A stretch of DNA of 64,000 nucleotides from Streptomyces sp. NBC_01478. GTDB lineage: Bacteria; Actinomycetota; Actinomycetes; Streptomycetales; Streptomycetaceae. Numbering within the stretch: the stretch's first letter is position 1; each line of letters opens with the position of its first letter. Under the pieces are notes generated by a model. That model searched no databases. It saw only the letters and a list, made by a program, of their open reading frames with translations, and had not been told where the DNA came from. The DNA lies in the NCBI RefSeq assembly GCF_036227225.1, contig NZ_CP109444.1:8847501-8911500 (forward strand), in the 5' to 3' direction. Shown here piece by piece: positions 43,007 to 61,546 of this stretch. The translations under genes and the position numbers were made by a program.

Positions 43007-43137
43007 TTCCCCCGTCCCCAAGGTGCTTGCCGGGAGGGCCGGTTGGCACGGCACGATCGGGGTACGGCCGACAGGGGCGTATCGGGAGCCGACGCGTACC
43101 GCGGGGCACGACAGCACGGCAGGGCGGGAGCACGGCG

Positions 43138-43821
43138 GTGATCCACGAGGTGGACGAGGTCCTGGGGGACCTGATCGGCGGCGGCGCACTGGCCGGTTCG
43201 GGCATCGAGGTCTCCTTCGACGCCCCGACCCGCGACTGGGCGGCCCGCCGCAACACCCCCACGATCAATACCTACTTGTACGACATCCGGGAGGACGTGC
43301 ACCGGCGCCAGCGCGGGCACGTCGCCGTGCGCGACGAGCGGGACGTGGTCGTCAAGCGCCGCCAGCCGCCGCGCTGGTTCCGGCTGTCGTACCTGGTGAC
43401 GGCGTGGACGAAGCGGCCGCAGGACGAACACCGGCTGCTGTCCGCCGTGTTGGCGACCCTGATCCCGCGCGAGCTGCTCGCCCCCTCCGAACTACCAGGC
43501 TCGCTGCGTCAGTTGGGCCTGTCGGTGCCGATCTCGGTGGCCGGCATCCAGACCGAGTCACGGTCCCTCGCGGAGATCTGGTCCGCCCTCGGCGGTGAAC
43601 TCAAGCCGTCCCTCGACCTCGTGGTCACCGCGCCCTTCCCGGCCTACCCCGAATACGACGCCGGCCCGCCCGTCACCGAGGGCGCGGCGGTCCGCGTCCA
43701 CCGCTTCGACGGCACCGATCCGGCGCCGGAGGAGCGCGCCCACCGGCCGCGCCAGGTGGCGGAGATACGGGAGGCCCGCGAAGCGGCCCGGCGCAACAGG
43801 GCGCCGGGGACGCCGACATGA
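43138..43821 (+). CDS. cis16: CIS cap/terminator protein (DUF4255, Pvc16/Afp16-like)
   Basis: 227 residues from GTG 43138 with GCGGGAG upstream. DUF4255 pattern: IHEVDEVLGDLIGGG at the start, ISFDAP-like VSFDAPTRDWA, NTPTINTYLYDIREDV, and RLSYLVTAWTKRPQDEHRLLSAVLATL. In Afp/PVC the counterpart caps the distal end of the sheath-tube and sets the end of assembly. Stop overlaps the start of the AAA+ gene by 4 bp (ATGA). Full-length for the family. Confidence 0.93.
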   Translation: MIHEVDEVLGDLIGGGALAGSGIEVSFDAPTRDWAARRNTPTINTYLYDIREDVHRRQRGHVAVRDERDVVVKRRQPPRWFRLSYLVTAWTKRPQDEHRLLSAVLATLIPRELLAPSELPGSLRQLGLSVPISVAGIQTESRSLAEIWSALGGELKPSLDLVVTAPFPAYPEYDAGPPVTEGAAVRVHRFDGTDPAPEERAHRPRQVAEIREAREAARRNRAPGTPT

Positions 43822-45860
43822 CGATCACGGACGGCACCGGAGACGTCGACACGGGCGTTTCGCACGACGCCGTGGCCTTCGCCGCCGAGTCGGCGACCAA
43901 CGCCCTTCTCGCCCGGCTCGGTCGCCTCCGTGAGCGGGTCGCCCTCCTCGTCGACCGGCGCTCCGCCGCCGACCCCACGGCCGGCGACCCGCTGCGCGGC
44001 CTGTACCTCCAGGAGGAGGCGGTACGGCATCTGCTGCTGCGCTCGCCGCAACCGGCCCCGCCCGCACCGGAGTCGACGCACGGACCGGCCGACCGCCTCG
44101 CCGCCCTGCACCTGACCGACCTCGACACCGCCCTCCTCCTCGTCGCCCTCGCCCCCGACCTGGACCGCACCTTCGAGCCCCTCTACGGCTACCTCAACGA
44201 CGACGTCGGCCGCCGCCGGGCCACCGTGGGCCTCGCCCTCGACCTGTGCGGCATCCCCGCGCACGAGGCGACGGGCCGGGCCCGGTTCCGCCCCACGGCC
44301 CCGCTGTCCGCCCTCGGACTGCTCACCGTGGAGGAACCCGAACGCCCCTTCCTCAGCCGCTCGTTGCGCGTCCCGGACCGGGTCGTGGCGCATCTCCTCG
44401 GCGACGACACCCCGGACGCGACCCTCACCGGGCACCTCCACCCCCTGCCCGCGCCGAGCCTGCCGTACGACGGACAAGAACCGGGCACGGACGGCGAGTT
44501 CACCGGCTTCGTGGACAAGCTGGGCGCGCTGCTCGCCGAAGGGCCGCCCGTCGCCGTGTATCTGAGGGAACGTCACGAGGGCGACGGGCTCGTGTGCGTG
44601 GCGACGGCACTGCACGCGGCGGCTGTGGCCGCCGTGCGGTTCTCCGGGCCCGAGGAGCGGGTGCCGGAGCTGCTGCGCGAGGCCCGGCTGGGCGGCCGTA
44701 CGGTCGTCGTGAGCGGACTGCCCGACCAACCCGGGCCGTTGGTACGAGCGTTGACCGCCGCCACCGATGTCTCCGTGCTGATCGCCGGTGCGCGGCCGTA
44801 CGACCCGCAGTGGTGCGAGAGCGATCCGCTGATCCTGGAGGCGCCCCGGCAGCGGGCCGCCACCGTGCGGGCCTGGACGGATGCCGTCGGCGAGGGCGGC
44901 GGCTTCGACGTGCGGGCCACCGTCGCGCCGTACCATCTCGGCGCCGACCGCATCGCGCGCGCCGCCCGGGCGGCCCGGGGGCTCGCCGCGTTCGACGGCA
45001 CCCCGCTGACCGCGGCCCATCTGCGGCTCGCGGCACGGCAGCAGTCGGCGTCGGGGCTCGAACGGCACGCCCGGCGGATCCGGCCCGCCGTCGACTGGCG
45101 GGACCTCGTCCTGCCCGACCGCTCCCTGACCCAGCTCCACGAACTCGCCCTGCGCGCCCGGCACCGCGACCGGGTCCTCGGCGACTGGCGGCTGAGCGCG
45201 GGCGGCGGCCGGGGTCGTGGCGTGCTCGGCCTGTTCGCGGGCGAGTCCGGGACCGGCAAGACACTCTCGGCGGAGGTCGTCGCGGCCGAACTCGGCCTGG
45301 ATCTCTATGTCGTTCAGCTGTCGTCGATCGTCGACAAGTACGTCGGCGAGACCGAGAAGAACCTCGAACGCATCTTCACGGAGGCGGACCGCACCGACGC
45401 CGTGCTCCTCTTCGACGAGGCCGACGCCGTCTTCGGCAAGCGGTCCGAGGTGAAGGACTCGCACGACCGGTACGCCAACATGGAGAGCGCCTATCTGCTC
45501 CAACGGCTGGAGTCCTTCGACGGGATCGCGCTGCTCACCACCAACCTGCGCGCCAACATCGACGAGGCGTTCACCCGCCGGCTCGATCTGGTCGTCGACT
45601 TCCCGTTCCCGGACCCGGCACAGCGGCTCGCGCTGTGGCGGCACGGCCTGACCCATGTGCCGAGCGCACCCGACCTCGAACTCACCCCGCTGGCCAAGGA
45701 GTTCGAGCTGGCCGGCGGTTCCATCCGCAGCGCCGTCGTCACCGCCGCCTACCTGGCCGCCGGACGCGGGGACACGGTCGGTGCGGCGGACCTCCTGGAG
45801 GGGGCCCGCCGCGAGTACCGCAAGGCGGGGCGGCTGGTGCCCGGCGAGGGCACCTGGTAG
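43818..45860 (+). CDS. cis15: CIS AAA+ ATPase (Pvc15/Afp15-like)
   Basis: 680 residues, ATG 43818. The N-terminal 400 residues are helical and divergent; the C-terminal AAA+ domain has Walker A GESGTGKT (about 475), VDKYVGETEKNLERIF pore-loop region, Walker B VLLFDEADAVFG (about 530), and arginine-finger region TNLRANIDEAFTRRLD. Counterparts in PVC and Afp are needed for assembly or quality control and are not part of the finished particle. Co-translated with the cap gene. Confidence 0.95.
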   Translation: MTITDGTGDVDTGVSHDAVAFAAESATNALLARLGRLRERVALLVDRRSAADPTAGDPLRGLYLQEEAVRHLLLRSPQPAPPAPESTHGPADRLAALHLTDLDTALLLVALAPDLDRTFEPLYGYLNDDVGRRRATVGLALDLCGIPAHEATGRARFRPTAPLSALGLLTVEEPERPFLSRSLRVPDRVVAHLLGDDTPDATLTGHLHPLPAPSLPYDGQEPGTDGEFTGFVDKLGALLAEGPPVAVYLRERHEGDGLVCVATALHAAAVAAVRFSGPEERVPELLREARLGGRTVVVSGLPDQPGPLVRALTAATDVSVLIAGARPYDPQWCESDPLILEAPRQRAATVRAWTDAVGEGGGFDVRATVAPYHLGADRIARAARAARGLAAFDGTPLTAAHLRLAARQQSASGLERHARRIRPAVDWRDLVLPDRSLTQLHELALRARHRDRVLGDWRLSAGGGRGRGVLGLFAGESGTGKTLSAEVVAAELGLDLYVVQLSSIVDKYVGETEKNLERIFTEADRTDAVLLFDEADAVFGKRSEVKDSHDRYANMESAYLLQRLESFDGIALLTTNLRANIDEAFTRRLDLVVDFPFPDPAQRLALWRHGLTHVPSAPDLELTPLAKEFELAGGSIRSAVVTAAYLAAGRGDTVGAADLLEGARREYRKAGRLVPGEGTW

Positions 45861-45876: not shown

Positions 45877-47295
45877 CTACACCGTGAACTTGACGGCCAC
45901 CAGCCAGCGGGAGTTGTCGAGCGTTCCGCCGAAGAGGTACTTGGGGCGCGCGTCCGCACACCCCTGACCGCCCCAGTCCCAGCCGGTGTTGCGGGCCGTC
46001 TCGCAGACCTGGCCGCTGCCGATGTTGATGGCGAAGCCCGTCATATAGGGGGCGCCGTCCTTCGAACTGCCGATGTAGTTGTCCTTGTTGTCGTCGATGA
46101 TCGCCGTCCACTGCGGTTCCCAGTGGCCGTTGCCGTCGGTCGAGTCGGGGTTGTGGATGAAGGCGTTGGCGGCCGAGCCGAGGCTTCCCGACACCGCGAT
46201 GTTCAGTGCCGTGATCTGCTTGGCGTCGTCGACCGTGCCGGTCGCGGCCCCGTCGCAGACCGCGTCCGTCCAGCCGTCGCCCGCGATGAAGGCGCGGTAG
46301 CAGATGTGGCGGCCCGCGTCCTTCGCGGCCAGCTTCTTCACCGCGGTCGCCGCCGTCGCCGGTTTGGGCTTGGGCTTGGCGGACGCCGTGGATCCGCCCC
46401 CGCCCCCGTCCGCCGCCGCGGCGGTCGAGGTCACGGCGACCGGCGGGGGAGCCGCGGCCGTCGCGGTGGGCGGCGGCGGCACACTGGCGGTCGGCGAGGG
46501 AGCGGGCGCCAGCGTGCTCACGCCCGCGTCCTTGAGCTGCTCGGTGGCGGCCGTCCGCACCTGCGGCTTGTACGCGATCCACAGCATCAGGAAGGTGAGC
46601 GCGAGCGCGAGGACGGCCCCGAGGAAGGTGGCCAGCCAGCGCGGCAGGAACCCGCGCTGAAGGTAAGTCCCCTCCACCGGAAGGGGGTTGGCACCGGACC
46701 GCAGCACGTTCAGCGTGTACGGCCGCTGCTCCTTCGGCCCGAACCAGATGATCTTCCGCGGCTTCAGCGACGCCTTGACGAAGGCGGCCCGGCCCGGCTC
46801 GATCTGCACATTGCCCGGATGGATGTCGTACGCCAGTTGGTCGCCGTTGTCGCTGCCGCTGATCGACGCCGTGAGCCTGGTGTTGCCGAGGTTGTCCACG
46901 GCCAGTCGCGGGCGGCCCCGGAAACGTCCCTTGACCGTCGGCGGCACCAGCTCCGCCCGCACCTCCGTGAACGGGGTGATGGTCAGATTGCCCTCGGGGA
47001 CGGTGACCGCCTCCGGGTGCTCGGTCGGCGTGATCCGCACCGCGTACGGGTTCGGGCCCGCCGTCGCGTCCGGGGTGCGCGGCGGCGTGAACGTCAGATC
47101 GACCGTACCCGTCGTGCCCGGATAGAGCCGCAGCGTCTGCGGCTCCACAGCGGTCCAGGGAGCGATGCTCCCGACCGGCTCGAAGCGGTACTCGTCCACG
47201 ACGTCGCCGGTGTTGCGCAGCCGCAGCCGCACACGGGTACTGCCACCGGGATCGACGGTCGCGGACGCGGGCTCCAGGGAGGTCCACAGACTCAT
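45877..47295 (-). CDS. CIS-associated membrane protein: Ig-like domains, one TM, ChW-like C-terminus
   Basis: 472 residues, ATG 47295, the only gene of the CIS block on the minus strand. N-terminal 220 residues form two Ig-like/COG1470-type beta domains (WTSLEPASATVDPGGSTRVRLRLRN; GNLTITPFTEVRAELVPP). One membrane helix (about 225-248), a Pro/Ala/Thr linker (265-320), and a C-terminal domain with a clostridial-hydrophobic-W-like repeat (AFIAGDGWTDAVCDGAATG) and RNTGWDWGGQG. Homologues in Streptomyces CIS loci are often called hydrolytic protein, but no hydrolase catalytic motif is visible. It might be a cargo, a membrane partner or a surface binder. Confidence 0.75.
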   Translation of the reverse strand: MSLWTSLEPASATVDPGGSTRVRLRLRNTGDVVDEYRFEPVGSIAPWTAVEPQTLRLYPGTTGTVDLTFTPPRTPDATAGPNPYAVRITPTEHPEAVTVPEGNLTITPFTEVRAELVPPTVKGRFRGRPRLAVDNLGNTRLTASISGSDNGDQLAYDIHPGNVQIEPGRAAFVKASLKPRKIIWFGPKEQRPYTLNVLRSGANPLPVEGTYLQRGFLPRWLATFLGAVLALALTFLMLWIAYKPQVRTAATEQLKDAGVSTLAPAPSPTASVPPPPTATAAAPPPVAVTSTAAAADGGGGGSTASAKPKPKPATAATAVKKLAAKDAGRHICYRAFIAGDGWTDAVCDGAATGTVDDAKQITALNIAVSGSLGSAANAFIHNPDSTDGNGHWEPQWTAIIDDNKDNYIGSSKDGAPYMTGFAINIGSGQVCETARNTGWDWGGQGCADARPKYLFGGTLDNSRWLVAVKFTV

Positions 47296-47556: not shown

Positions 47557-49140
47557 ATGCCGTCCTACCTGTCACCCGGCGTCTACGTCGAGGAGGTGGC
47601 CAGCGGCTCGCGCCCGATCGAGGGAGTGGGCACTTCGGTGGCGGCCTTCGTGGGCCTGGCCCCGACCGGTCCACTGAACGAGCCGACCCTGGTGACCAAC
47701 TGGACGCAGTACGTGGCTGCCTTCGGTGAGTTCACCGACGGGTACTACCTCGCCCACTCGGTCTACGGCTTCTTCAACAACGGCGGTTCGGCCGCCTACG
47801 TCGTCCGCGTCGGCGGCACCGCCGAGGGCACCGCCGCCGAGTCCAACTCCCCGTCCGCCGTGACGGGTTCGGCCGCACCGGCCGCGCTGCCGCCCGGTGA
47901 GCCGGCCCAGCTCGGCACCTTCGCCGTGACCGCGCTCGCGCCCGGCGACCTGAGCGTCGAGGTGGCCGACGCCGAGGGCGAAGGCCCGGCGGAACGCTTC
48001 CGGCTGGTCGTCAAGGACGCCGGCAGGGACGTCGAGAGCTTCGACGTGACCGCCAAGAAGGGCGGCCGCAACTACGTCGTCACCCAGGTCAAGGAACGTT
48101 CCAAGCTCATCGCCGTGACCGAGGCCGCGCCCGCCGCGCAACTGGCCCGCCCGGAGAACCAGACGGTCGCGCTCAGGGCGCCCGCCGCCACACCGGCCGT
48201 ACCCGGCAAGGCAACTGACGTTCCGTCACATCCCGGCCCGGCCACCTACCTCGGTGACTCCGCCGACCGCACCGGCTTCGGCGGCCTGGAGGCCGTGGAC
48301 GAGATCTCCATGGTCGCGGTGCCCGACCTGATGGCCGCCTACCAGCGCGGCGCGATCGACCTGGAGGCCGTCAAGGCCGTCCAGTTGGGCCTGATCGCGC
48401 ACTGCGAGCTGATGGGCGACCGGGTCGCCGTCGTCGACCCGCCGCCGGGCCTGAACGCCCAGCAGGTCCGCGTCTGGCGGCAGGAGACGGCCGGCTACGA
48501 CTCCAAGTACGCGGCCCTGTACTACCCGTGGATCAAGACCTTCGACCCGTCCAGCGGACAGTCCCGGCTGATCCCGCCGAGCGGCCACATCGCCGGCGTC
48601 TGGGCCCGCAACGACTCCGAGCGCGGTGTGCACAAGGCGCCGGCCAACGAGGTCGTACGCGGCGCGGTCGACCTGGAGACCCAGATAACCCGCGGCGAGC
48701 AGGACTTGCTCAACCCCATCGGCGTCAACTGCATCCGCGCCTTCCCGGGCCGCGGCATCCGTGTCTGGGGCGCCCGCACGATGTCCTCCGACCCGGCCTG
48801 GCGCTACCTCAACATCCGCCGGTACTTCAACTACCTGGAGGAGTCGATCCTGATCGGCACCCAGTGGGTGGTGTTCGAGCCGAACGACCACGCCCTGTGG
48901 GCCCGGATCCGGCGCAACATCTCGGCCTTCCTGGTCAACGAGTGGCGCAGCGGTGCCCTGTTCGGCCAGCGGCCGGAGGAGGCGTACTACGTCAAGTGCG
49001 ACGAGGAGACCAACCCGCCGGAGTCGGTCGACGTCGGCCGGGTCGTCTGCGAGATCGGCATCGCACCGGTCAAGCCGGCCGAGTTCGTGATCTTCCGGCT
49101 GGCCCAGTTCTCCAGCGGCAGCGGGGAGTTGGAGGAGTAG
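47557..49140 (+). CDS. cis2: CIS contractile sheath protein
   Basis: 527 residues, ATG 47557 with GAGGAGAG upstream. Starts with PSYLSPGVYVEEVASGSRPIEGVGTSVAAFVG, the highly conserved opening of phage-tail-like sheaths, and ends with the C-terminal sheath domain (GIRVWGARTMSS, RRYFNYLEESILIGTQWVVFEPND). The variable middle (about 90-215) is an Ala/Pro-rich outer domain. It polymerises around the tube and drives it forward on contraction. Usually the most highly expressed CIS gene. Confidence 0.97.
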   Translation: MPSYLSPGVYVEEVASGSRPIEGVGTSVAAFVGLAPTGPLNEPTLVTNWTQYVAAFGEFTDGYYLAHSVYGFFNNGGSAAYVVRVGGTAEGTAAESNSPSAVTGSAAPAALPPGEPAQLGTFAVTALAPGDLSVEVADAEGEGPAERFRLVVKDAGRDVESFDVTAKKGGRNYVVTQVKERSKLIAVTEAAPAAQLARPENQTVALRAPAATPAVPGKATDVPSHPGPATYLGDSADRTGFGGLEAVDEISMVAVPDLMAAYQRGAIDLEAVKAVQLGLIAHCELMGDRVAVVDPPPGLNAQQVRVWRQETAGYDSKYAALYYPWIKTFDPSSGQSRLIPPSGHIAGVWARNDSERGVHKAPANEVVRGAVDLETQITRGEQDLLNPIGVNCIRAFPGRGIRVWGARTMSSDPAWRYLNIRRYFNYLEESILIGTQWVVFEPNDHALWARIRRNISAFLVNEWRSGALFGQRPEEAYYVKCDEETNPPESVDVGRVVCEIGIAPVKPAEFVIFRLAQFSSGSGELEE

Positions 49141-49205: not shown

Positions 49206-49649
49206 ATGAGTCTCCAGCCGGGTGACGCCCTCACCTCACACAATTTCGGCCTGCAGATCGACGGCGTGATGGTCGAGTACCTCGCGGAGGTCAGCGGCCT
49301 CAGCATCGAGCAGGACGTCATCACGTACCAGCAGAACACCCCCAACGGCCAGAACGTGGTGAAGAACCTGCCGGGCGTGAAGAAGAACGGCACCTGCACC
49401 GTCATCCGCGGCATGACCCAGTCGGCCTCGTTCACCCAGTGGATCAACGAGTCGATCTCCGGCCAGATGACCACCGCGCGCAAGAACGCGTCGATCATCA
49501 TGATGGACTTCCAGAACAACCCGGTGAAGCGCTACCACCTGCGCAACGCCTGGTGCAGCAAGATCGACGCGAGCACGGTGAAGGCGGGCGAGGCCGCGGC
49601 CCTCACCGAGTCCGTGACCATCGTGTTCGAAGAACTGGTCATCGAATAA
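49206..49649 (+). CDS. cis1: CIS inner tube protein (Pvc1-like)
   Basis: 147 residues, ATG 49206 with AAGGA upstream. gpFI/Hcp-like tube fold: FGLQIDGVMVEYLAEVSGL, PGVKKNGTCTVIRGMT, and the final VTIVFEELVIE strand. Stacked hexameric rings form the inner tube. Follows the sheath gene by 65 nt. The stop codon shares a base with the next ATG (TAATG). Confidence 0.96.
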   Translation: MSLQPGDALTSHNFGLQIDGVMVEYLAEVSGLSIEQDVITYQQNTPNGQNVVKNLPGVKKNGTCTVIRGMTQSASFTQWINESISGQMTTARKNASIIMMDFQNNPVKRYHLRNAWCSKIDASTVKAGEAAALTESVTIVFEELVIE

Positions 49650-50161
49650 TGCGGCGTTCGGGGGCGGCGGCCGCGGCGATGGCGGTGCCGGGTGCGGGTG
49701 CGGGTGCGGGTGCGGATTCGGTGGCCGAGGTGGGCGCGGGGCCGATACCGGCTCCGGCCCCGGCGGCCGCCGCTCCGGCCGTACGGCAGACGCTGCGGAC
49801 CGAGTTCCCCTTCCAACTGCCGCGCGGTTACGTCGACGAGTCCGGCACGGTCCACCAGGACGGCGTGATGCGACTGGCCACCGCACGCGACGAGTTGGTG
49901 CCGCTGCGGGACGTGCGCGTGCAGGAGAACCCGGCGTATCTGTCGGTGGTGCTGCTCGGCCGGGTGATCACGAGGCTGGGCACCGTCCCCATGGTCCACG
50001 ACGGGATCGTGGAGAACATGTTCGCCTCCGACCTCGCCTTCCTCCAGGACTTCTACCGCCAGATCAACGCGGAGGGCCACACCCGCGCGGCAGTTCAGTG
50101 CCCGCACTGCGCGGAACCCTTCGAGGTGGAGCTCGGCGGGAGCCGCCTGGGGGAATCGTGA
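49649..50161 (+). CDS. CIS tail-assembly-chaperone-like protein with CxxC end
   Basis: 170 residues, ATG 49649 overlapping the tube stop. The first 50 residues are Ala/Gly/Pro-rich and lie over a G-quadruplex motif. Residues 60-145 (FPFQLPRGYVDESGTVHQDGVMR, RDVRVQENPAYLSVVLLGRVIT, FLQDFYRQIN) have the look of Mu/P2-type phage tail assembly chaperones. Residues 155-165 carry CPHC, a possible half zinc site. Location between the tube gene and the large gene at 50318 is the usual chaperone position in contractile tails. Product function is inferred from order and pattern. Confidence 0.65.
   Translation: MRRSGAAAAAMAVPGAGAGAGADSVAEVGAGPIPAPAPAAAAPAVRQTLRTEFPFQLPRGYVDESGTVHQDGVMRLATARDELVPLRDVRVQENPAYLSVVLLGRVITRLGTVPMVHDGIVENMFASDLAFLQDFYRQINAEGHTRAAVQCPHCAEPFEVELGGSRLGES
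49690..49710 (+). other. Perfect G-quadruplex motif at the start of the chaperone-like gene
   Basis: Four GGG tracts at 49690, 49696, 49702 and 49708, each separated by TGC, on the coding strand 41 nt into the gene. This fits the canonical G3N3 pattern and could fold in the mRNA. Confidence 0.75.
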
Positions 50162-50316
50162 CGTACGCGACCGACCGGCTGCACGAGGAGATCGCGTACG
50201 TCGCCTACCACTTCCACTGGAGCCTGGAGGACATCCTGGACCTCGAACACCACGACCGCCGCCGCTACACGGGCGAGATCGCGTCCCTGGTGACGCGGTC
50301 CGGGGCGGAGGGCTGA
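50158..50316 (+). CDS. 52-residue CIS protein (DUF6760/phage GpE-like)
   Basis: GTG 50158 overlaps the stop of the preceding gene (GTGA). The protein reads as a single helical unit with the core YVAYHFHWSLEDILDLEHHD, close in pattern to phage P2 GpE (FHWPP...L..L..WR), which in P2 is expressed by a frameshift next to its tail chaperone. Here the second part is reached through a GTGA overlap instead. Stop is followed after 1 nt by the next ATG, so translation is coupled on both sides. Confidence 0.75.
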   Translation: MTYATDRLHEEIAYVAYHFHWSLEDILDLEHHDRRRYTGEIASLVTRSGAEG

Positions 50317-50317
50317 G

Positions 50318-53300
50318 ATGGGGTTCTTGGACCGGTTGCGGGGGCGGGACGACGGGGCTCGGGCTGAGTCAGGGGCCGCGGTCGGTGATGCGGGCTCCGA
50401 CCCCGACGGCTCTACGGGTTCTGCGGGTTCTACGGCTTCCACGAGTTCTACGGGGCCTGCTGTGAGGGTGGCCGCCTGGCCGGGGCTGGCGCCGATTCAG
50501 CGGGCCTCCGCCGTAGGGGGTACCGGGGTGGCCGACACCGGGTTCGGCGCGCGGTTGCCCACGTGGCAGAACCCGTCGTTCACGGGGACGGGGTTCCGCG
50601 CGGTGCTGGACGCGGAGCGGAGTGCGCGGATCGCGGGTTCCCCGCCGATGCGTGCGGCACGGGCGGTGCCGAGTCTGGGACAGCCGGCGGGTGAACTGCC
50701 GTTGGCGGGTCGTGCGGCGGCGGCACCGGTGGAGCGGGCTGCGGCGGTGCCGTTGCGGACGACTGCGGGACGGGGGGTGTCCGGGACGCTCGGTGTTCAG
50801 CGGGCGGTGCCTCTCGTACGGGGTGGTTCCTCCGGTGTGAAGGCGGAGGCGGTGAGGCCGGTCGGGTCGGATTCCGGGGTCGAACCGGTGCGTCCGGCTT
50901 CCGGTGTGCGGGTGACTGCGGTGTCGTCGGAGCCGCTTCGGCCGGGCTCGTTGACACGGGCTGGGGCGGGTGCGGCCGCGGTCGCGGTGCAGCGGAAGCT
51001 GGTTGCCCGGCGGAACTCGGCTGCTGTCGGGGGCGGTTCGGGGAGCGGTTCGGGTGACGACAAGGGTGACAAGGGTGGGGAGTCCGGGTCCGCGTCAACT
51101 GACGCCAGCCGAGGCGGTGTTACTCCGGACGGTGAGTCGCCTGTCCCGTTCGTCGATCCTGCGACCGGTGACGGGACCCCCGCCAGGGGCAACGTGGCTG
51201 GGGTCGTTCCGGCGGCTCCGGGCGGCCCGACAGCCGTCGCCACCGGTGCGGCCAAGCCCGCCGTGCAACGCCGACCGGCTACCAACTCGGTTGCACCACA
51301 GGCTTCTTCGGGTCGGGCCACGACACCGCGGAGGCCCTCGGCGAACGGCGGTGACGACCCCGCGGGCCCCGGCGGACATGGCGACGGGGCTCCCGTCTCC
51401 GGGAACGGGACTGGGAGCGGGAGCGGTACGGACAGGGTGCAGCGGTCGATTCCCGCGCCGGACATGACGGTCGCCGCCCGCGCATCGCTGCCCGTGCAAC
51501 GCGCGATGACCGCATCCGCTCCACGCGACGCCGACACCGCCCAGCCTCGCCCCAACACCCCAGCACCGCCGACCCCCGCGGAACCGGACAACGATCCAAC
51601 CCCCGGCCCTACGTCCCCTCCCGCACCCCAGGTCCAACGCAGCGCCGTGCCCCACACACCCCGCGTTCCCCTCGGTGCCCCGCTCGTCACACACCAGGCG
51701 GTGCGGCGTTCGGCGGCTCACTCCGTGCCGGGGGAGTTGCCCAACACCCCTTCCCCGCAAGGTGATTCGCCCACGGTCCCGGAAGCAGGTTCGGCAACCC
51801 CCGTCCCGCCTCCGCCGACGACCACTCCCACCCGGCGCCGATCACCCCTCGGCGCCCCCGTCACCAGCACCCCCGCAGACGCCAAGCCCCTCACCGGCTC
51901 GCCCATCCCGCAGGCCGGCGCTGAACACCGTACGGAACCGGTTCCAAGGCCGACGATCCAACGAAGCGCGACTCCGAGCACGCTTGTACCGGTCACCACG
52001 ACGTACCCGACCACCGCGCACGGCCCGACCGCAGCCCCCGCGACACCGAGCCCGGCGATCCAGCGCAGCGCCCCCGAGAGCACGCCGATGCCGGCCACGC
52101 AGGCCTCCTCGGCAACCACGCCCCCGAGCACCGCGCACCGTCCGATCGCAGCGTCGCCACCCTCGGGTTCGGAGCCGACGATCCAGCGAAGTGCGGCCCC
52201 CAGCAGGCCTGTTGTACCTGCTCCGCAGACTCCGTCAGTCACCTCGTCAGCGCTGCCGACGCCGGGTCAGGGTCCGGCGGTTCAGCCCAGCGTCGCCCCA
52301 AGCGCGACTGTGCCGCCCTCGCAGATCCCCTCGGCCGGCGCGTCCTCGCCCGCCGTGCGCCCTACCGCCGCAGACGGTGCGACTGGAGCCCCGGCCAACT
52401 CGTCAGTCCTGCCGATGCCGGGCCTGGGTCCGTCGGTGCAGCGGAGTGTCGCCCCGAGTGCCCCTGTGCCGCCCTCGCACATCCCCTCGGCCAGCGCGCC
52501 CTCGCCTGCCGTGCGCCGAACTGCCACAGGCGGCGCGACTGCAGCCCCGGTCGACTGGTCAGTCCTGCCGATGCAGGGTCAGGGGCCGTCGGTTCAGCGG
52601 AGTGTCGCCCCGAGCACGCCTGTGCCGCCCCTGCGGGCCCCCTCGGCCAGCGCGCCTTCGCCAGCGGCGCGCCCAACTGCCACAGGCGGCCTGACCGGAG
52701 TCCAGGCCGACTCGGTAGTCCTGCCGGTGCCGGGCCTGGGTCCGTCGGTGCAGCGGAGTGTCGCCCCGAGCGCCCCTGTGCCGCCCCCGCATACCCCTTC
52801 GGCCACCGAGCCCTCGCCTGTCGCGCGCCGAACTGCCACAGGCGGCGCGCCTGGAGCCCCGGCCACCTCAGCAGTCCCGCCGACGTCGGGCCCGGGTCCG
52901 ACGGTCCAGCGAAGCGCCGCCCCGACCGCCCCTGTACCGCCCCCGCGCACCCCTTCCGCCACGCGCCCAACTACCGCACTCCTGCCGACGGTTGCCCCGG
53001 TGAAGGCCGCGTCTCCGGCTCCGACTCCGTCCTCGGCTGTGATCCCACCCTCGGCGGTGACTTCGTCCAGGATCGGACCCCGATCCTCGGATCTGGCTCC
53101 CCCTTCGGCCGAGAGCCCATCCCCGGCAGGGCCTCGTCCCTCGGCCGTAACTCCGCCCCCAGCCGTGCCTTCGTCTACAGCCGCGAGCCCGCCCCACGTT
53201 GGGTCCCCGCCCCCGGCCCCGAGCACGTCCTCAGCCGGACGCTCAGCCGGACCCTCTACCACGACTCAACACCGCGCCACGAAGCTGACTCCCCCCAGCC

Positions 53301-53932
53301 CGACCGCTCCCGACCCCACGCTTCCCCGCGCGACCTCCACCACCACAACGCCGCTCACCACACCCCGGCCCACCCCGCAGGCACCCCTCACCGCCCTGCT
53401 CCGCACATCACCTCCGCCGCCCTTCACCCCCGTACAACGTCACCGCCGTACCACCCCCGACAGGCCCACCACACCCCTCGGGCACACCGCACCACCCGTA
53501 GTACCCCTACGCCTAGCCACCCCCCCACATCCCACCCGCCTCCCGATCTCCGCCCCCCTCCCCGTCCAACGCACCCCCTCCTCCGCCACCCCCGCACTCG
53601 GCGCCGCACTCTCCTCCCCCCTGAACCAAGTCCGCCCCACCGTCGGAAAGACCGGCATCACCCCCGCCCCCACCACCATCGCCGCCCCCGCACTCACCAC
53701 CGCCCCACCTCCACCCCCGTACTCCCCGACCACAGTCACCGCAGCTCCACCCCCACCCCCACCCCCCGCCTACGAAGCCATCCCCGCAGGCCAGTTCGAC
53801 CCCCGAGAGCTCACCGACTTCCAGCTCGACGAACTCGTGCACAGGATCATCGGCCGCATCACCCGCCTGATCCGCACGGAACTCCGCCTGGACCGCGAAC
53901 GGATCGGCAAACTCCGCGACCCCCGCCACTGA
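50318..53932 (+). CDS. 1204-residue disordered (V/I)QR-repeat protein in the tape-measure position
   Basis: ATG 50318, 1 nt after the preceding stop. N-terminus MGFLDRLRGRDD, then WPGLAPIQRA and GARLPTWQNPSF (about 55-90), which look conserved. Nearly all the rest is Pro/Ser/Ala/Thr-rich and without predicted helices. (V/I)QR occurs 16 times over about 1000 residues, mostly followed by S-(A/V/T). Four 52-residue tandem repeats start at residue 646. The last 45 residues are a compact basic helix pair (LTDFQLDELVHRIIGRITRLIRTELRLDRERIGKLRD). Between the chaperone-like genes and the second tube gene one expects the tape measure, but the composition is not that of a helical ruler. It may be a scaffold, ruler or recruiting hub. 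Confidence 0.8.
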   Translation: MGFLDRLRGRDDGARAESGAAVGDAGSDPDGSTGSAGSTASTSSTGPAVRVAAWPGLAPIQRASAVGGTGVADTGFGARLPTWQNPSFTGTGFRAVLDAERSARIAGSPPMRAARAVPSLGQPAGELPLAGRAAAAPVERAAAVPLRTTAGRGVSGTLGVQRAVPLVRGGSSGVKAEAVRPVGSDSGVEPVRPASGVRVTAVSSEPLRPGSLTRAGAGAAAVAVQRKLVARRNSAAVGGGSGSGSGDDKGDKGGESGSASTDASRGGVTPDGESPVPFVDPATGDGTPARGNVAGVVPAAPGGPTAVATGAAKPAVQRRPATNSVAPQASSGRATTPRRPSANGGDDPAGPGGHGDGAPVSGNGTGSGSGTDRVQRSIPAPDMTVAARASLPVQRAMTASAPRDADTAQPRPNTPAPPTPAEPDNDPTPGPTSPPAPQVQRSAVPHTPRVPLGAPLVTHQAVRRSAAHSVPGELPNTPSPQGDSPTVPEAGSATPVPPPPTTTPTRRRSPLGAPVTSTPADAKPLTGSPIPQAGAEHRTEPVPRPTIQRSATPSTLVPVTTTYPTTAHGPTAAPATPSPAIQRSAPESTPMPATQASSATTPPSTAHRPIAASPPSGSEPTIQRSAAPSRPVVPAPQTPSVTSSALPTPGQGPAVQPSVAPSATVPPSQIPSAGASSPAVRPTAADGATGAPANSSVLPMPGLGPSVQRSVAPSAPVPPSHIPSASAPSPAVRRTATGGATAAPVDWSVLPMQGQGPSVQRSVAPSTPVPPLRAPSASAPSPAARPTATGGLTGVQADSVVLPVPGLGPSVQRSVAPSAPVPPPHTPSATEPSPVARRTATGGAPGAPATSAVPPTSGPGPTVQRSAAPTAPVPPPRTPSATRPTTALLPTVAPVKAASPAPTPSSAVIPPSAVTSSRIGPRSSDLAPPSAESPSPAGPRPSAVTPPPAVPSSTAASPPHVGSPPPAPSTSSAGRSAGPSTTTQHRATKLTPPSPTAPDPTLPRATSTTTTPLTTPRPTPQAPLTALLRTSPPPPFTPVQRHRRTTPDRPTTPLGHTAPPVVPLRLATPPHPTRLPISAPLPVQRTPSSATPALGAALSSPLNQVRPTVGKTGITPAPTTIAAPALTTAPPPPPYSPTTVTAAPPPPPPPAYEAIPAGQFDPRELTDFQLDELVHRIIGRITRLIRTELRLDRERIGKLRDPRH
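52253..52980 (+). repeat. 156-bp tandem repeats, four full copies plus one partial
   Basis: Units at 52253-52408, 52409-52564, 52565-52720, 52721-52876 and a decayed fifth from 52877. Each encodes 52 residues of the form LP-x-PG-x-GP-(S/A)-VQ-(R/P)-SVAPS ... TATGGA. Exactly in frame; length is constant while single bases vary. Confidence 0.9.
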
Positions 53933-54000: not shown

Positions 54001-54423
54001 ATGTCCCGCCTCGACCCGGGCTCCACCATCTGGTTCACCCTCAGCATCGACGGCGAGAGCCTCGGCTACTTCAACGGGTGCGAAGGGCTGTCGTCGCAGG
54101 TGGAGATCGAGCACCGGCAGGAGGGCGGCAACAACGGCTTCGTATGGCAACTCCCCACCCGTGTCACCTTTTCCACCATCCGGCTGACCCGCCCGCTCAC
54201 CCCGGACACCGCGAAGGTCGCCAAGTGGATCTCCTCCGTGCAGACCGGGATCAAGCGCCCCACCGGGCAGATCGCGGCGCTGCGCGCGGATGGTTCGGAG
54301 GTCGCGCACTGGGGGCTCATCGACGTGCTGCCGGTGAGCTGGCAGGGCCCCTCCCTGGACCCGGCGGGGCCCGCCGTCGCCACCGAGGTGCTGGAGATCG
54401 CCCACCACGGATTCACGGACTGA
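54001..54423 (+). CDS. CIS second tube protein (Pvc5-like, tube initiator/adaptor)
   Basis: 140 residues, ATG 54001. gpFI/Hcp-like fold related to the main tube protein: WFTLSIDGESLGYFNGCEGL, EIEHRQEGGNN, IRLTRPLTPDTAKVAKWI, ending VATEVLEIAHHGF. In PVC and Afp the minor tube proteins sit between the baseplate hub and the main tube. 19 nt upstream of the LysM-type baseplate gene. Confidence 0.93.
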   Translation: MSRLDPGSTIWFTLSIDGESLGYFNGCEGLSSQVEIEHRQEGGNNGFVWQLPTRVTFSTIRLTRPLTPDTAKVAKWISSVQTGIKRPTGQIAALRADGSEVAHWGLIDVLPVSWQGPSLDPAGPAVATEVLEIAHHGFTD

Positions 54424-54442: not shown

Positions 54443-55162
54443 ATGGCCACCAGCAGAGGCGCGGGCAAGAGTCTCGTCCGTGCCAGTCTCGCCATTCACG
54501 AGCCGCCCGTCGGAGGCAGCACCACCCCGGGCGGGCTCATCAAGACCTTCGCCTTCGACTTCAACCCGGCACAGTTGTCGCTGACCCGTCGCGCCCAGTG
54601 GAAGACCACCCCGGCGCAGATCGAACGGGACGGCTCCGTCCCGGAGTTCATGGGTTCGCAGCCGCGTGAGATGGGCGTGGAGATCTTCCTCGACTCCTCC
54701 GACGAACCGACCAGCAACTCGGTGCTGAAGAAGGTCGAGTCGCTCCTCGCGTGCTGCGACGTGACCACCAAGTCCATTGCCGCCAAACAGCCTTCACCTC
54801 CGTGGGTGGTGTTCCAGTGGGGGTCCTTCTCCACCGCCCGCTTCACCGCGTACGTCTCCTCCGTCGAGGCCGCGTACTCGCTCTTCGGGACGACCGGCGT
54901 GCCCATCCGTGCCACCTGCCGGCTGCAACTCCACGAGATACCGAGCAAGACCAAGGGCCAGAACCCGACGTCGGGCGCGCTCACCGCGCAACGCGTCCAC
55001 CGGGTCGTGGCAGGGGACTCCCTGCAGTCGCTGGCCTGGCGGGAGTACGGCGACTCCGCCGCGTGGCGGGCGATCGCCGAGGCCAACGGGATCGACGACC
55101 CGACGCGGCTCGCGAACGGTGTCGAACTCGTGCTGCCCGCCGCCGAGGAGGTGCGTTCCTGA
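54443..55162 (+). CDS. cis7: CIS baseplate protein with LysM domain (Pvc7-like)
   Basis: 239 residues, ATG 54443. N-terminal 160 residues match the phage gp53/Pvc7-like fold (LIKTFAFDFNPAQLSLTRRAQWKTTPA, then EFMGSQPREMGVEIFLD). Residues 185-235 form a LysM domain: HRVVAGDSLQSLAWREYGDSAAWRAIAEANGID. In other CIS the LysM part fastens the hub to the tube end. The stop shares a base with the spike gene ATG (TGATG). Confidence 0.93.
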   Translation: MATSRGAGKSLVRASLAIHEPPVGGSTTPGGLIKTFAFDFNPAQLSLTRRAQWKTTPAQIERDGSVPEFMGSQPREMGVEIFLDSSDEPTSNSVLKKVESLLACCDVTTKSIAAKQPSPPWVVFQWGSFSTARFTAYVSSVEAAYSLFGTTGVPIRATCRLQLHEIPSKTKGQNPTSGALTAQRVHRVVAGDSLQSLAWREYGDSAAWRAIAEANGIDDPTRLANGVELVLPAAEEVRS

Positions 55163-57069
55163 TGGTGAAGTCCGCGTTCTCCAACGTCGTCGAGGTGCGG
55201 ATCGGCGGGGCCAAGATCCCTTCCGAGTACGCCCGTTACCTCGTCGACAGCTACGTCGACCAGGGCGTCGGCGTGCCCGCCGCGTTCCGGCTCACCTTCC
55301 GGGACCCGTACCGCCTGATCCTCGGAAAGCTGGGGGTCACCTTCGGCACGAAGGTCGTCATCGCGCCGGTGGCCGACGGACAGGGTGCCTCCGATCCGCT
55401 GCTGACCGGTGAGGTCACGGGACTTGAGGCGGACTACGACGGCACCGGCACCTTCACCGTCGTCCGCGGCTACGACTTCGGGCACCGGCTGCTGCGGCAG
55501 CGCCGGGTGGCCGCCTACCGCAACCAGAGCGCCTCCGACATCGCCCGCAAACTCGCCGCCCAGGACGGCGTGCCGATCGGGAAGATCACCTCCACGCGCA
55601 CGGTCTACGAGTTCATCTCCCAGTCCAACGTGACCGATTGGGACTTTCTCGCCCGGCTCGCCGACGAGAACGAGATGGTCATGTCGGTCGACGCCGACGG
55701 CAAGTTCCAGTTCGTGGAGCCCAAGCCGTCGTCCGGCGCGCCGTCGCCCGAGACCGACGGCGACAAAAGCCCGTTCGTGCTCCAGGCAGGGCACGACATC
55801 CTGCGGCTGCGGGCCGCCGTGACCGCCGCCGATCAGGTCGCCACCGTCGAGGCGCGCGGGTGGGACGTCACCACGAAGAAGAAACTCACCGCCACCTCGC
55901 CCGGGGCCTCGAATCCGGCCATCGGCATCGGCACCACCCCGGGCGCGGCGGCCGGCAAGTTCAAGACGGCCAAGCTCGTCGAGACGGGCACGCCCTACGA
56001 CAAGCAGAACGAGGTGAAGTTCGCCGCCGCCGCCCTCGCCGACGACGTGACGTCCTCCTTCGCCGAACTGGAGGTCGTCGCGCGCGGAAATCCCAAGCTG
56101 CGCCCGGGAGTTCCGGTCGCGCTGGCCGACGTAGGGGCGCCCTTCGAGGGCAAGTACACGGCCACTTCCGTACGGCACGTCTTCGGCGACGGAAAGCACT
56201 ACGAGACCTGGGTGACGGTCAGCGGACGGCAGTGGCGTTCGCTGTACGGGCTCGCCTCGGGCGGTTCGGCCACCGCGCCCCGGCTGCCCGGCGTCGCCAA
56301 CGCCCTTGTCACGGACGTCAACGACCCGCTCAAGCAGGGGCGGGTGCGGCTGCAGTTCCCGTGGCTGGACGACACGTACGTCAGCGACTGGACGCGGACC
56401 GTGCAGTGGGGCGGGCTGGGGGGTGGCGGCGTCTTCCCGATGGACGTCAACGACGAAGTGCTGGTCGCCTTCGACCGAGGGGCACTTGATCATCCCTTCG
56501 TGATCGGCGGGCTCTACAACGGCAAGGACAAGCCGACCGTCGTGAGCGACGTTCCGTTGCACGACGCCGTACGGAAGAAGGCGAGCCGGCACACCGTCTC
56601 CGACCGGGACGGCAACCGGATGGATCTGCTCAGCCAGAAGACCGGCGGCCGCAAGCAAGGGGTCCGACTGGCCTCCGGGGACAAGCAGTTGACCATCACC
56701 CTGGACCGCACGAACACCGAGATCACCGTCGACAGCAAGGGCACGGTCTCCATCAAGGGCAGCCGGTCCGTGTCGGTCGAGGCCGGGACCGATCTCACCC
56801 TCAGCGCCCGGCGCAGCCTGACCATCAAGAGCGGCGGCCTCCTGAACATCGAGGGGCGCGGGATGGTCAACGTCAAGTCGACCACCGGAGCGATCACGTT
56901 GGACGCGATGGGCGCCCTCAACCTGAAGGCGCTCGGCAACGCGATGCTCACCGCGGGCGGGAGCGTGCAGGTCAACTCCATCGGCAACGTGGGCATTCGG
57001 GCCATCACCGTGCCGATCATGGGCGTGGTCACCCTCAACGGCCTTGTCCCGATGGTGATTCCGGCATGA
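55162..57069 (+). CDS. cis8: CIS spike protein (VgrG/gpD-gp5-like, Pvc8)
   Basis: 635 residues, ATG 55162. gp27-like hub (residues 1-370: SEYARYLVDSYVDQGVGVPAAFRLTF, YDFGHRLLRQRRVAAYRNQSASDIA), OB fold (about 380-470: NDPLKQGRVRLQFPWLDD, WGGLGGGGVFPMDVNDEVLVAFDRG), then a triple-stranded beta-helix needle (TEITVDSKGTVSIKGSRSVSVEA). The extreme C-terminus is hydrophobic (VPIMGVVTLNGLVPMVIP). No separate PAAR tip gene is found nearby, so this end may form the tip itself. Confidence 0.95.
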   Translation: MVKSAFSNVVEVRIGGAKIPSEYARYLVDSYVDQGVGVPAAFRLTFRDPYRLILGKLGVTFGTKVVIAPVADGQGASDPLLTGEVTGLEADYDGTGTFTVVRGYDFGHRLLRQRRVAAYRNQSASDIARKLAAQDGVPIGKITSTRTVYEFISQSNVTDWDFLARLADENEMVMSVDADGKFQFVEPKPSSGAPSPETDGDKSPFVLQAGHDILRLRAAVTAADQVATVEARGWDVTTKKKLTATSPGASNPAIGIGTTPGAAAGKFKTAKLVETGTPYDKQNEVKFAAAALADDVTSSFAELEVVARGNPKLRPGVPVALADVGAPFEGKYTATSVRHVFGDGKHYETWVTVSGRQWRSLYGLASGGSATAPRLPGVANALVTDVNDPLKQGRVRLQFPWLDDTYVSDWTRTVQWGGLGGGGVFPMDVNDEVLVAFDRGALDHPFVIGGLYNGKDKPTVVSDVPLHDAVRKKASRHTVSDRDGNRMDLLSQKTGGRKQGVRLASGDKQLTITLDRTNTEITVDSKGTVSIKGSRSVSVEAGTDLTLSARRSLTIKSGGLLNIEGRGMVNVKSTTGAITLDAMGALNLKALGNAMLTAGGSVQVNSIGNVGIRAITVPIMGVVTLNGLVPMVIPA

Positions 57070-59543: not shown

Positions 59544-60110
59544 TTGAGGGGTTCAGTGGACGGCCTCGGCTCCTCCGCGCCGATCGGCGCGATGCTGCCC
59601 GCCGTGTTCGCCGACGACGACCTCGCCCAGCGTTTCGTCGCCGGGCTCGACGAGGTCGTAGCGCCGATCCTGAGTGTGCTGGACTGCCTGGACACGTACT
59701 TCCGGCCGTCGCTCGCACCGCTCGACTTCGTGCAGTGGCTGGGGAGTTGGGTCGGTGCCGAGACCGACGGCAGTGAACCGGAGGAGCGACTGCGCGCCGC
59801 CGTGGCCGCCGCCACCTATCTGCACCGCATCCGCGGCACCCGACGCGGACTGGCCGAAGCCGTCCGGCTCGCGTTCGGGGTCGAACCCGAGATCACCGAG
59901 AGCGGCGCCGCCGACTGGAACGCCCGCCCGCTCGGCCCGGTACCCGGCGAACGCAGCCCCCGGCTGCACGTACATCTGCGGCTGCCCGCGCCGACCACGC
60001 TGGACACCCACCGGCTGGACGCCCTCGTGGCGGCCGCCCGCCCCGCCCACATGCCGTACACGGTCCAGGTCACCACCACCGTGCCCGCCGAAAGGAACCC
60101 CGAGAGATGA
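59544..60110 (+). CDS. CIS baseplate tail protein (P2 gpI-like, Pvc12-like)
   Basis: 188 residues from a TTG at 59544 with GGGAGG 6 nt upstream; GTG at 59556 and an internal ATG are alternatives. Pattern of phage tail protein I: FVAGLDEVVAPILSVLDCLDTYFRPSLAPLDFVQWLGSWVG, RGTRRGLAEAVRLAFG and a short C-terminal beta domain. It pairs with J in wedge formation. Short compared with Pvc12; fibre-binding parts seem to be absent. Stop overlaps the next ATG by 4 bp. Confidence 0.85.
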   Translation: MRGSVDGLGSSAPIGAMLPAVFADDDLAQRFVAGLDEVVAPILSVLDCLDTYFRPSLAPLDFVQWLGSWVGAETDGSEPEERLRAAVAAATYLHRIRGTRRGLAEAVRLAFGVEPEITESGAADWNARPLGPVPGERSPRLHVHLRLPAPTTLDTHRLDALVAAARPAHMPYTVQVTTTVPAERNPER

Positions 60111-61546
60111 CGACCACCCAGAGCTGCGCCGAATGCGGAACCCGCGCGGAACCGGGCCAGTCGTTCTGCGACTCCTGCGGTGCCGTCCTGAGCTGGACGG
60201 ACCGCGCGGGCGCACGCACCGGGGCCGCGGGGAGCGCGGCGGCCGACGGCCCGGGCCGGGACACGAACGACGCGAACGGCGCACGGGACAACAGGGTCCC
60301 GGCGCAAGGGAGTTCGGTCCTGGACGACCCTGCGGCCCGACTGGACGCCCTGTCCCTGCGCCTGGACGCCCTGGCCGCCGGCGGCTCGTACGACTCCGTC
60401 GGAGCGACCACCGCACAGGACCCGGCGAACGCGGACACCTCCGGTGGCACCACGACGTCCCACCCGTCCGGCGGGTCCACGACGTCGCACCCGTCGGGTG
60501 GGTCTACGACTTCGCACCCGTCCGGCGGTCCTGCAACCCACCCCGCGTCCGGCGGCAGCACGTCCTACCCCGACCCGTGGCCGACTCCGCCCTCCGTGCC
60601 CGACGCCCGCACCCAACCGGTCCCCGCCACCACGCCGGAGTCACCGGAATCCGAGGCCGAGCGCGCCCGGCGTCTCCTCGTCCCGGTCTCCGACCCGGAG
60701 CCCCGCCAGGCCCCCTCCGTCGCCCCGGTCCTGCCCGGCCGCCCGGTGGCCGCGCGCCCGCAGTCCGTCCGGGCACCCGGTGTCGAACCCGGTGCCGCGG
60801 GCGGGGTGCCCTGCCCCTGGTGTGCGACGGCCAACCGGCCCGACCGGCACTACTGCGCCCGCTGCGCGATGCCCATGGCCGGCGACGAGCAGGCCCCCGG
60901 CCGGCTGCCGTGGTGGCGGCGGCTGCTCACGTTCCGGAACGGCGAGATCCCGTGGGCGGGCGACCGGCCGCGGCTGCGCCGTACCTTCGACCGGGTGCTG
61001 ACCTGGCTCGGTGCCGCGATCGTGCTGACCCTGCTGATCGTGCTGGCCGTCAACATCCCGCGTGGCGTGGACGCGGCCAAGGACCACTTCGCCAAGCGGG
61101 CCCCCGTCTACCCGGACCGCGTCACCGCCTCCCGCTCCTTCCCCGGGCACAAGCCGGAGCTTGCCTTCGACCGGCTGAACAACACCTGGTGGGGGCCGGG
61201 GGTGAGCCAGTCGGGCAAGGGCCAGTGGCTGGAGGCGCGATTCGACGAGCCGACCCGGCTGCTGGACCTGATGATCACCCCGGGCGTCTCCACCCGCCCC
61301 GACCAGCTCACCCAGTCGGCGCTCCCGCACCGGATCGAGGCGGAGATCACCCTGGCCGACGGCAAGAAGATCACCCGTCAGCTCACCCTCGACCAGGGGG
61401 CGGGTGCCCAGCGCCGTTCCTTCCGGGTCGGCACGGTCACGGCGGTCCGCTTCACCATCGAGTCCGCCTACGGAACCTCAGGGAAGAAGCAAGTGGCCAT
61501 CGCCGAGATCGAGTTCTTCGGCCCGTCGAACTCCGGCGGTTCCTGA
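60107..61546 (+). CDS. cisA: CisA-like membrane protein: two zinc ribbons, linker, TM, extracellular discoidin-like domain
   Basis: 479 residues, ATG 60107 in ATGA overlap with the preceding gene. N-terminal zinc ribbon (C7/C10 and C22/C25), disordered linker with 9-residue repeats, a second ribbon (C236/C239 and C250/C253), one membrane helix (about 300-320), and an extracellular beta-sandwich of discoidin/NADase-type glycan-binding kind (FPGHKPELAFDRLNNTWWGPG ... VAIAEIEFFGPS). As recalled, S. coelicolor CisA (SCO4242), at the same end of its CIS locus, is a membrane protein required for CIS attachment to the membrane and for function. Domain order fits such a docking role. Confidence 0.82.
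   Translation: MTTTQSCAECGTRAEPGQSFCDSCGAVLSWTDRAGARTGAAGSAAADGPGRDTNDANGARDNRVPAQGSSVLDDPAARLDALSLRLDALAAGGSYDSVGATTAQDPANADTSGGTTTSHPSGGSTTSHPSGGSTTSHPSGGPATHPASGGSTSYPDPWPTPPSVPDARTQPVPATTPESPESEAERARRLLVPVSDPEPRQAPSVAPVLPGRPVAARPQSVRAPGVEPGAAGGVPCPWCATANRPDRHYCARCAMPMAGDEQAPGRLPWWRRLLTFRNGEIPWAGDRPRLRRTFDRVLTWLGAAIVLTLLIVLAVNIPRGVDAAKDHFAKRAPVYPDRVTASRSFPGHKPELAFDRLNNTWWGPGVSQSGKGQWLEARFDEPTRLLDLMITPGVSTRPDQLTQSALPHRIEAEITLADGKKITRQLTLDQGAGAQRRSFRVGTVTAVRFTIESAYGTSGKKQVAIAEIEFFGPSNSGGS
60440..60547 (+). repeat. 27-bp tandem repeats in the CisA-like gene
   Basis: Three near-identical units at 60440-60466, 60467-60493 and 60494-60520, coding for SGG(S/T)TTSHP, with a decayed fourth to 60547. 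They lie in the disordered linker between the zinc ribbons. Copy number may vary between strains. Confidence 0.85.

Follow-up and report, generated by a model that had tools for sequence, protein, structure and literature searches.

Introduction

The contractile injection systems (CIS) of Streptomyces have been described as uniform particles from whose gene clusters the tape-measure gene is missing. One study, in which all analysed particles were equal, gives a length of 268 nm, counts 60 layers of tube and 61 of sheath, and reports the tape-measure gene as absent (PMC12237407). The S. lividans cluster has likewise been presented as lacking a tape-measure gene, with SCO4248 as the slpT2 homologue (PMC10286715), and a further report mentions no typical tape measure and gives about 230 nm for a non-contractile mutant in vitro (PMC10066040). 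Here, we describe an overlooked gene in precisely this position, found in a window of 64,000 nucleotides (positions 8,847,501-8,911,500 of contig NZ_CP109444.1) within the 12.1-Mb genome of Streptomyces sp. NBC_01478, which holds a CIS gene cluster. The gene encodes a protein of 1204 aa, termed slot protein below for its place between two small genes and the second tube gene.

Several CIS components can be removed while the particle keeps its normal shape, namely sle1/2, sco4256-4258, the ATPase and cisA (PMC13277306, PMC10066040, PMC10020575, PMC12237407). Particles without Sle1 and Sle2 have no apparent structural defect, and Sle2, which carries DUF4157, potentially interacts with the tube initiator (PMC13277306). 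Deletion of sco4256-4258 empties most lumens and leaves the particle otherwise similar (PMC10066040), and ATPase mutant particles, from a study giving an average length of 295 nm, are normal (PMC10020575). By gene order, the S. coelicolor counterparts of the chaperone and the slot protein would be SCO4251 and SCO4249. A literature search on the names SCO4248-SCO4251 turned up no study that treats SCO4249 as a CIS gene; the single paper containing the tag applies it to PhoP.

The Slot Protein and Its Conservation

The slot protein is best explained as a conserved core component of type IId CIS that has apparently gone unstudied. Its gene begins one base after the stop codon of a DUF6760 gene and ends 68 bp upstream of a gp19-type tube gene. 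Since the gene preceding DUF6760 encodes a tail assembly chaperone, the slot protein lies in the tape-measure position, as an earlier note on this DNA had proposed from gene order; the chaperone family match, the weaker DUF6760 match and the adjoining tube initiator all bear this out. The protein has the following features:

50318..53932, + strand: slot protein, 1204 aa, disordered (V/I)QR protein
50318..50380, + strand: basic/aromatic N-terminal leader (MGFLDRLRGR...)
50468..50620, + strand: conserved head with W..L(P/A)PIQR (the first motif) and then the LPTWQNPSF block, from alignments
53816..53914, + strand: C-terminal amphipathic helix, residues 1167-1199, from alignments and as the sole ordered element in the structure model

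Conservation was assessed in 176 loci found via tube-initiator similarity, a sample that leans to close relatives, using a C-terminal helix profile built from 22 of the slot proteins. Among Streptomyces-type loci, an open reading frame (ORF) with this helix directly precedes the initiator in 139/140, the remaining locus being truncated 72 bases upstream. The helix ORF was found in 12/20 loci from other actinobacterial families, two of these being weak, and in 2/16 loci with weak initiator matches. Where chaperone and initiator are both in reach (136 loci), a helix gene lies between them in 124; 123 of the 136 are distinct by initiator DNA, and 111 of these 123 hold the helix gene. At one further locus (L151), the helix was recognised by eye and a third tube gene intervenes.

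The protein is composed largely of Pro (19%), Ala (15%), Thr (11%) and Ser (11%). In an AlphaFold2 model of residues 1-1200 of the 1204, based on 23 aligned sequences, 1052/1200 residues fall below pLDDT 50, in agreement with the earlier view that the Pro/Ser/Ala-rich body is not helical. The sole element of at least 4 residues is the helix 1167-1199, whose blocks have mean pLDDT values of 89-95. A helical tape measure is thereby ruled out, both by the proline content and by a model holding one 33-residue helix. The short structured ends that had been expected were thus recovered at the C-terminus only; the N-terminus has no predicted order, despite sequence conservation over the first ~100 residues.

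In the general layout, a basic/aromatic start leads into W..LPPIQR and a WQNP block, after which come a variable, disordered middle and the helix. In the slot set alone (102 proteins, defined below), an aromatic residue occurs within the first 8 aa in 84/102 and residues 6-21 are net positive in 95/102. The window leader MGFLDRLRGR has the features described for leaders of extracellular CIS (eCIS) cargo, that is, an early aromatic residue, positive charge at residues 6-21 and disorder (PMC11297309). The mean net charge of slot proteins is +40. A unit of 156 bp (52 aa) is repeated in tandem in ~4.7 copies at 52243-52968 (+) and carries only part of the (V/I)QR motifs.

The whole protein gave no match in Pfam, PHROGs, NCBIfam or PDB, tape-measure families included, by searches that a diverged relative could escape. 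The tails of slot proteins gave weak matches only, to PHROGs of unknown function, and database searches with C-terminal regions returned one match each.

For length and motif analyses, 102 distinct full-length slot proteins were used, the window protein included; those left out comprised 27 for want of a usable ORF, 14 whose start was unanchored, 21 that lacked the C-terminal motif and 13 duplicates. Lengths range from 581 to 1876 aa (median 1170, n=102), the longest probably having a wrong start. As a separate observation, an S. clavuligerus plasmid carries a slot ORF of ~1380 codons with 20 motifs (L219:9525-13673) that is absent from the gene table, where small ORFs are listed instead; slot genes may be easily misannotated.

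The (V/I)QR Motif Is Shared With DUF4157 Cargo

The count of 16 (V/I)QR motifs in 1204 residues given in the earlier note was confirmed: 16 QR dipeptides are present in the window protein and 16/16 occur as (V/I)QR, as opposed to a mean of 0.25 and a maximum of 3 in 5000 shuffles. Across the 102 slot proteins, 1286 (V/I)QR were counted (21.6 expected). The enrichment is not private to the slot gene and is common to DUF4157 cargo, a sharing that is new in this analysis. The 68 DUF4157 ORFs from the fetched loci contain 128 (V/I)QR compared with 14.7 expected (8.7-fold), and 121 compared with 12 after removal of the core domain and exclusion of four fused slot proteins. Protein-database DUF4157 proteins with the core removed (the 120 listed of 3085 matches, with actinobacterial organism names shown) contain 287 instead of 21.2 (13.5-fold). 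In these, (V/I/L)QR clusters ~75 aa before and 60-80 aa after HExxH, bracketing the core domain. By contrast, (V/I)QR occurs at 1.07-fold (137 vs. 128 expected) in the 690 coding-like ORFs from the fetched loci that served as controls, ruling out a motif general to Streptomyces proteins.

Since it is common to DUF4157 cargo and flanks the core domain, the motif points to a function in cargo, in the lumen or in processing. It had been suggested instead that a ring protein docks at the motif, giving beads on a string. This idea is unsupported, in view of the sharing and of the irregular spacing: the 1186 motif spacings are broad (median 63, mean 75, coefficient of variation 0.74), which rules out a fixed spacing that matches tube rings and gives no sign of periodic docking.

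The motif is also conserved within the disordered region, where retention at aligned motif positions is 90% for V (or I), 92% for Q and 96% for R, vs. 59, 45, and 69% elsewhere (58 aligned pairs that are not independent). In 18 pairs in which each protein was used once, though still related among themselves, the motif was retained in 211/243 cases, compared with 38% for any tripeptide. Retention was 0.87 for exact VQR, 0.52 for exact IQR and 0.87 for the two as one class. Alignment can favour motif retention, and the tripeptide control removes this bias only partly, APL and LPV also reaching ~0.8. The motif is conserved while synonymous change is ordinary. An origin as a by-product of tandem repeats is ruled out, given that the motif spans the whole protein and is kept in alignable homologues with synonymous change.

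Outside Streptomyces, slot proteins have a median of 4 copies (range 0-11, 9 proteins) and the Deinococcus ORFs described below almost none; the motif is therefore not a universal part of the slot protein. A single archaeal (Haloferax) DUF4157 protein (L218:13297-14640) has (V/I)QR at -155, -98, -61, and +59 around HExxH, an example by which the cargo motif may span domains of life.

DUF4157 Fusions and Small Helix Genes

In three genomes, DUF4157 lies inside the slot protein itself (L161, L168 (= L200), and L180 (= L204)), which lends support to a cargo hub, the alternative offered in the earlier note. On Deinococcus plasmids, ORFs of 1535-1999 codons with DUF4157 and uncertain starts lie directly after the second tube gene. 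Three of these four giant ORFs match the helix profile with E values of 2e-5 to 4e-5 (L211-L213), and the fourth (L214) matched only a wider profile that included the L214 tail itself. In addition, small genes (~60 aa) with a similar terminal helix are located between chaperone and second tube in L211, L212, and L213; searched with a wider profile that included two giant Deinococcus tails, they gave E values of 1e-5 and 4e-6 for L211 and L212 and a weaker 2e-3 for L213. Kovacikia has an 81-codon helix gene just before the second tube, with an E value of 1e-4 to the actinobacterial profile.

The positions of the small Deinococcus and Kovacikia genes recall the Cis6/Alg6 plug. Alg6 is a helix trimer in the spike cavity that is needed for assembly (PMC8894135). 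Searches for an Alg6/Afp6/Cis6 plug gave no PDB match for profiles A3, A5, and A6 or for three single sequences; where anything matched, it was a ribosomal, a designed or some other unrelated protein. The plug reading is for this reason one that we infer. An 85-aa Rhodococcus gene before LysM resembles the small helix genes by eye only, with no profile match and no second tube found in that stretch.

ORFs of 365-905 codons that end in a similar-looking helix were also noticed between second tube and LysM in CIS of Nostoc, Paenibacillus, Paraburkholderia and a Rhizobium plasmid (L215:10009-11580, L217:10930-12531, L216:9711-12425, L222:8791-9885). At E up to 1, the actinobacterial-only helix profile did not pick up the Nostoc, Paenibacillus and Paraburkholderia tails. 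Going by these look-alike helices, the slot protein may be of a cross-phylum kind.

The Gene Cluster

The second tube protein aligns over its full length with S. coelicolor Cis1b (PDB 9gtp), which places the cluster with the CISSc or type IId kind. Its genes follow one another in this order, the slot protein standing between DUF6760 and the tube initiator:

43027..43821, + strand: cap protein (Pvc16 N-terminal family), PF14065, E 3e-43
43818..45860, + strand: AAA+ ATPase (Cis15 type), PF00004, E 5e-23
47557..49140, + strand: sheath (Cis2), PF04984, E 9e-32
49206..49649, + strand: inner tube (Cis1a), PF06841, E 2e-31
49649..50161, + strand: tail assembly chaperone; 26/26 relatives match the phage chaperone family, E up to 1, best 2e-8
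50158..50316, + strand: DUF6760, possible second chaperone (P2 gpE-like), PF20546 in 25/25 relatives
54001..54423, + strand: second tube, tube initiator (Cis1b), full-length alignment to S. coelicolor PDB 9gtp, E 6e-81
54443..55162, + strand: LysM hub protein (Cis7), PF19266, E 2e-20
55159..57069, + strand: VgrG-type spike (Cis8), PF04717 and PF05954
57107..57550, + strand: gp25 (Cis9), PF04965
57554..59512, + strand: baseplate J (Cis11), PF04865
59544..60110, + strand: Tail_P2_I baseplate protein (Cis12), start uncertain, PF09684
60107..61546, + strand: CisA-like protein with zinc ribbon, at the place of CisA as in PMC12237407

Foldseek by itself returned no significant match for the structure model of the chaperone. 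The GTG start of DUF6760 overlaps the chaperone stop, and its relatives show a weak Phage_P2_GpE match in 8/25 (E up to 1, best 0.0077). The CisA-like protein (60107-61546) has a weak C-terminal match of F5/8 type (NADase_transloc) with an E value of 8e-4, under the Pfam cut-off. Upstream of the sheath, a divergent gene (45877-47295, - strand) is 50% identical over its first ~250 aa to a 'hydrolase' from the CIS on the S. clavuligerus plasmid; the remainder is unalignable, a swapped-end effector layout possibly of the SCO4256 type. The same genome contains a second CIS cluster (L044, C1:11755500-11775000) with its own slot protein of 1153 aa and 9 motifs. There, a DUF4157 gene is located ~3 kb before the sheath match; neither of the genome's DUF4157 matches falls in the window.

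Proposed Role and Alternative Readings

On the best reading, the slot protein would work like a tape measure or a plug-tether, although it lacks the helical build of the tape-measure family. It is a strong, hitherto unnamed candidate for setting syringe length. In its fuller form, which we consider to have about an even chance of being right, the proposal is that of a disordered assembly tether of cargo type, anchored at the hub and located in the lumen, which stands in for the tape measure and probably contributes to length. The slot protein would have taken the place of the phage tape measure in type IId systems, and its C-terminal helix may anchor it at the baseplate hub, be it to the tube initiator, the LysM hub or the spike cavity, in a manner comparable to the tape-measure C-terminus or the small Cis6/Alg6 spike plug. 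During assembly, the ~1,000 disordered and positively charged residues would run into the tube lumen. (V/I)QR is envisaged as a short linear motif common to cargo, whose many copies in the slot protein might bind along the tube, to the chaperone or to the loading machinery, or get cut. The protein would thus nucleate tube growth and probably contribute to its fixed length.

A tape-measure-like role in assembly is favoured because of the position, the conserved ends and the repeats in the middle, and because the published removals have left no other candidate. A lumenal protein of cargo type is favoured because the slot protein shares the cargo motif, is fused to DUF4157 in some relatives and has a leader-like N-terminus, and because a mean net charge of +40 contrasts with a tube lumen reported to be negative in Anabaena and, by description, similar in AFP and PVC (PMC8894136).

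Several points weigh against this proposal. As far as the available parts of the papers go, the slot protein is not among the nine proteins in the cryo-EM model (PMC12237407), and the proteins of unknown function detected in S. coelicolor particles are SCO4242, SCO4256, and SCO4251, not SCO4249 (PMC10020575). Many empty sheaths, differing in length, were present in the same preparations (PMC10020575), and the lumen is mostly empty once three effectors are deleted, with the slot gene still present (PMC10066040). The protein is not helical and has no profile match to any tape-measure family. Among the 136 loci, 6 actinobacterial ones have no gene between chaperone and initiator (L170, L172, L175, L176, L177, and L179), and at 5 others the ORF in that place is rich in Pro (14-23%) and ends differently (L155, L156, L158, L159, and L160). 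Finally, slot length differs by a median of 62 aa and up to 220 aa where initiators are at least 97% identical (63 pairs); L027 (1250 aa) and L074 (1433 aa), for instance, have the same Cis1b.

Such variability among close relatives also fits a cargo-loading scaffold, in which a string in the lumen would recruit or co-load effectors and depart together with the tube while length is set otherwise, e.g., by the cap or by kinetics. This alternative is possible, though we hold it only tentatively. It would account for (V/I)QR being the motif of DUF4157 cargo, for the presence of DUF4157 inside slot proteins, for the giant Deinococcus ORFs that join DUF4157 to a similar C-terminal helix and for an N-terminus that fits the eCIS leader (PMC11297309). 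A scaffold would be expected less readily from the fixed place after the assembly chaperone in nearly all sampled Streptomyces loci, which is unlike the variable effectors, and from a protein in which no effector domain was found.

A strict molecular ruler, in which one slot-protein length gives one particle length, is doubtful. Particles are identical at 268 nm and 60 tube rings (PMC12237407); at ~4.1 nm per ring (22 AlgoCIS rings spanning 90.2 nm), 60 rings amount to ~246 nm. Slot ORFs measure 1280-1433 aa in nine genomes that are close to S. coelicolor by Cis1b, S. coelicolor itself not being one of them, so that each residue would cover ~0.18 nm, feasible for a half-extended chain. This is arithmetic only, however, and published lengths vary by method (about 230, 268, and 295-300 nm). 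Slot lengths moreover drift between near-identical systems, and a strict ruler must explain the median difference of 62 aa by different particle lengths.

The tape measure of phage lambda undergoes cleavage. A self-erasing ruler, in which (V/I)QR would be cleavage sites and the finished tube would be cleared of the cut protein, freeing room for cargo, appears improbable here. The same holds for its more detailed version, in which multivalent (V/I)QR contacts of a hub-anchored disordered chain would determine tube length before the chain is cut at these motifs, leaving the lumen to cargo with the same motif. In line with it, the motif lies at module borders in DUF4157 proteins, the slot protein is unnamed among the detected particle proteins in the available text (PMC10020575), and the lumen can be empty (PMC10066040). 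The cleavage is putative, though, a protein can be missing from such a list for other reasons, and growth inhibition by Cgo1 is independent of the DUF4157 metalloprotease motif (PMC8894135).

It is hardly credible that the operon has merely acquired an unrelated Pro-rich protein of surface or adhesion type. The composition alone speaks for this, and the conserved place, ends and motif, together with the single base that separates the gene from DUF6760, already disfavour it.

The preferred reading, a lumenal assembly tether, puts a named gene, SCO4249 by gene order, where the literature on uniform Streptomyces particles misses one. The natural slot-length variants of ~580 to 1430 aa make the length question testable, and published particle lengths exist for Roseiflexus castenholzii, C. 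chliarophilus and Deinococcus aquatilis (PMC12998442), the giant Deinococcus ORFs described above belonging to other species of that genus. The motif common to the slot protein and DUF4157 cargo could underlie cargo recognition, loading or processing and would be useful for engineered protein delivery. A self-erasing disordered ruler, if true, would be a principle of length control unlike the helical tape measure.

Comparison With Known Systems

Like tape measures of the lambda gpH type, Afp14/Pvc14 and the TP901-1 TMP, the slot protein is encoded after tube and tail assembly chaperone and combines conserved ends with a length-variable, repeat-bearing middle, a layout described for the TP901-1 tape measure (PMC5099701). 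In contrast to these, it is predicted to be disordered, proline-rich and not helical, carries a cargo motif and has no detectable sequence relation to them.

The Cis6/Alg6/Afp6 plug shares with it an ordered part consisting of a C-terminal helix and a gene that adjoins the tube initiator (PMC8894135, PMC8894136). The slot helix, however, ends a chain of ~1,160 further residues, and a sequence relation was not found.

Tme of the Streptomyces davawensis CIS belongs to a different CIS clade and has DUF4157, predicted transmembrane helices and an EndA-type nuclease (PMC11126660). No Tme-type domain was found in the slot protein, transmembrane helices not having been checked with a dedicated predictor. 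The two are alike in being encoded by the largest gene, directly upstream of the baseplate genes, and in disorder, which is predicted for ~70% of Tme (PMC11126660).

Finally, the window slot protein differs from the DUF4157 effectors Sle2 and Cgo1/Cgo2 in that domain searches found neither PF13699 (DUF4157) nor an effector domain in it. Slot proteins nevertheless share with these effectors the (V/I)QR motif and disordered stretches, and in three relatives the core domain itself is fused to the slot protein.

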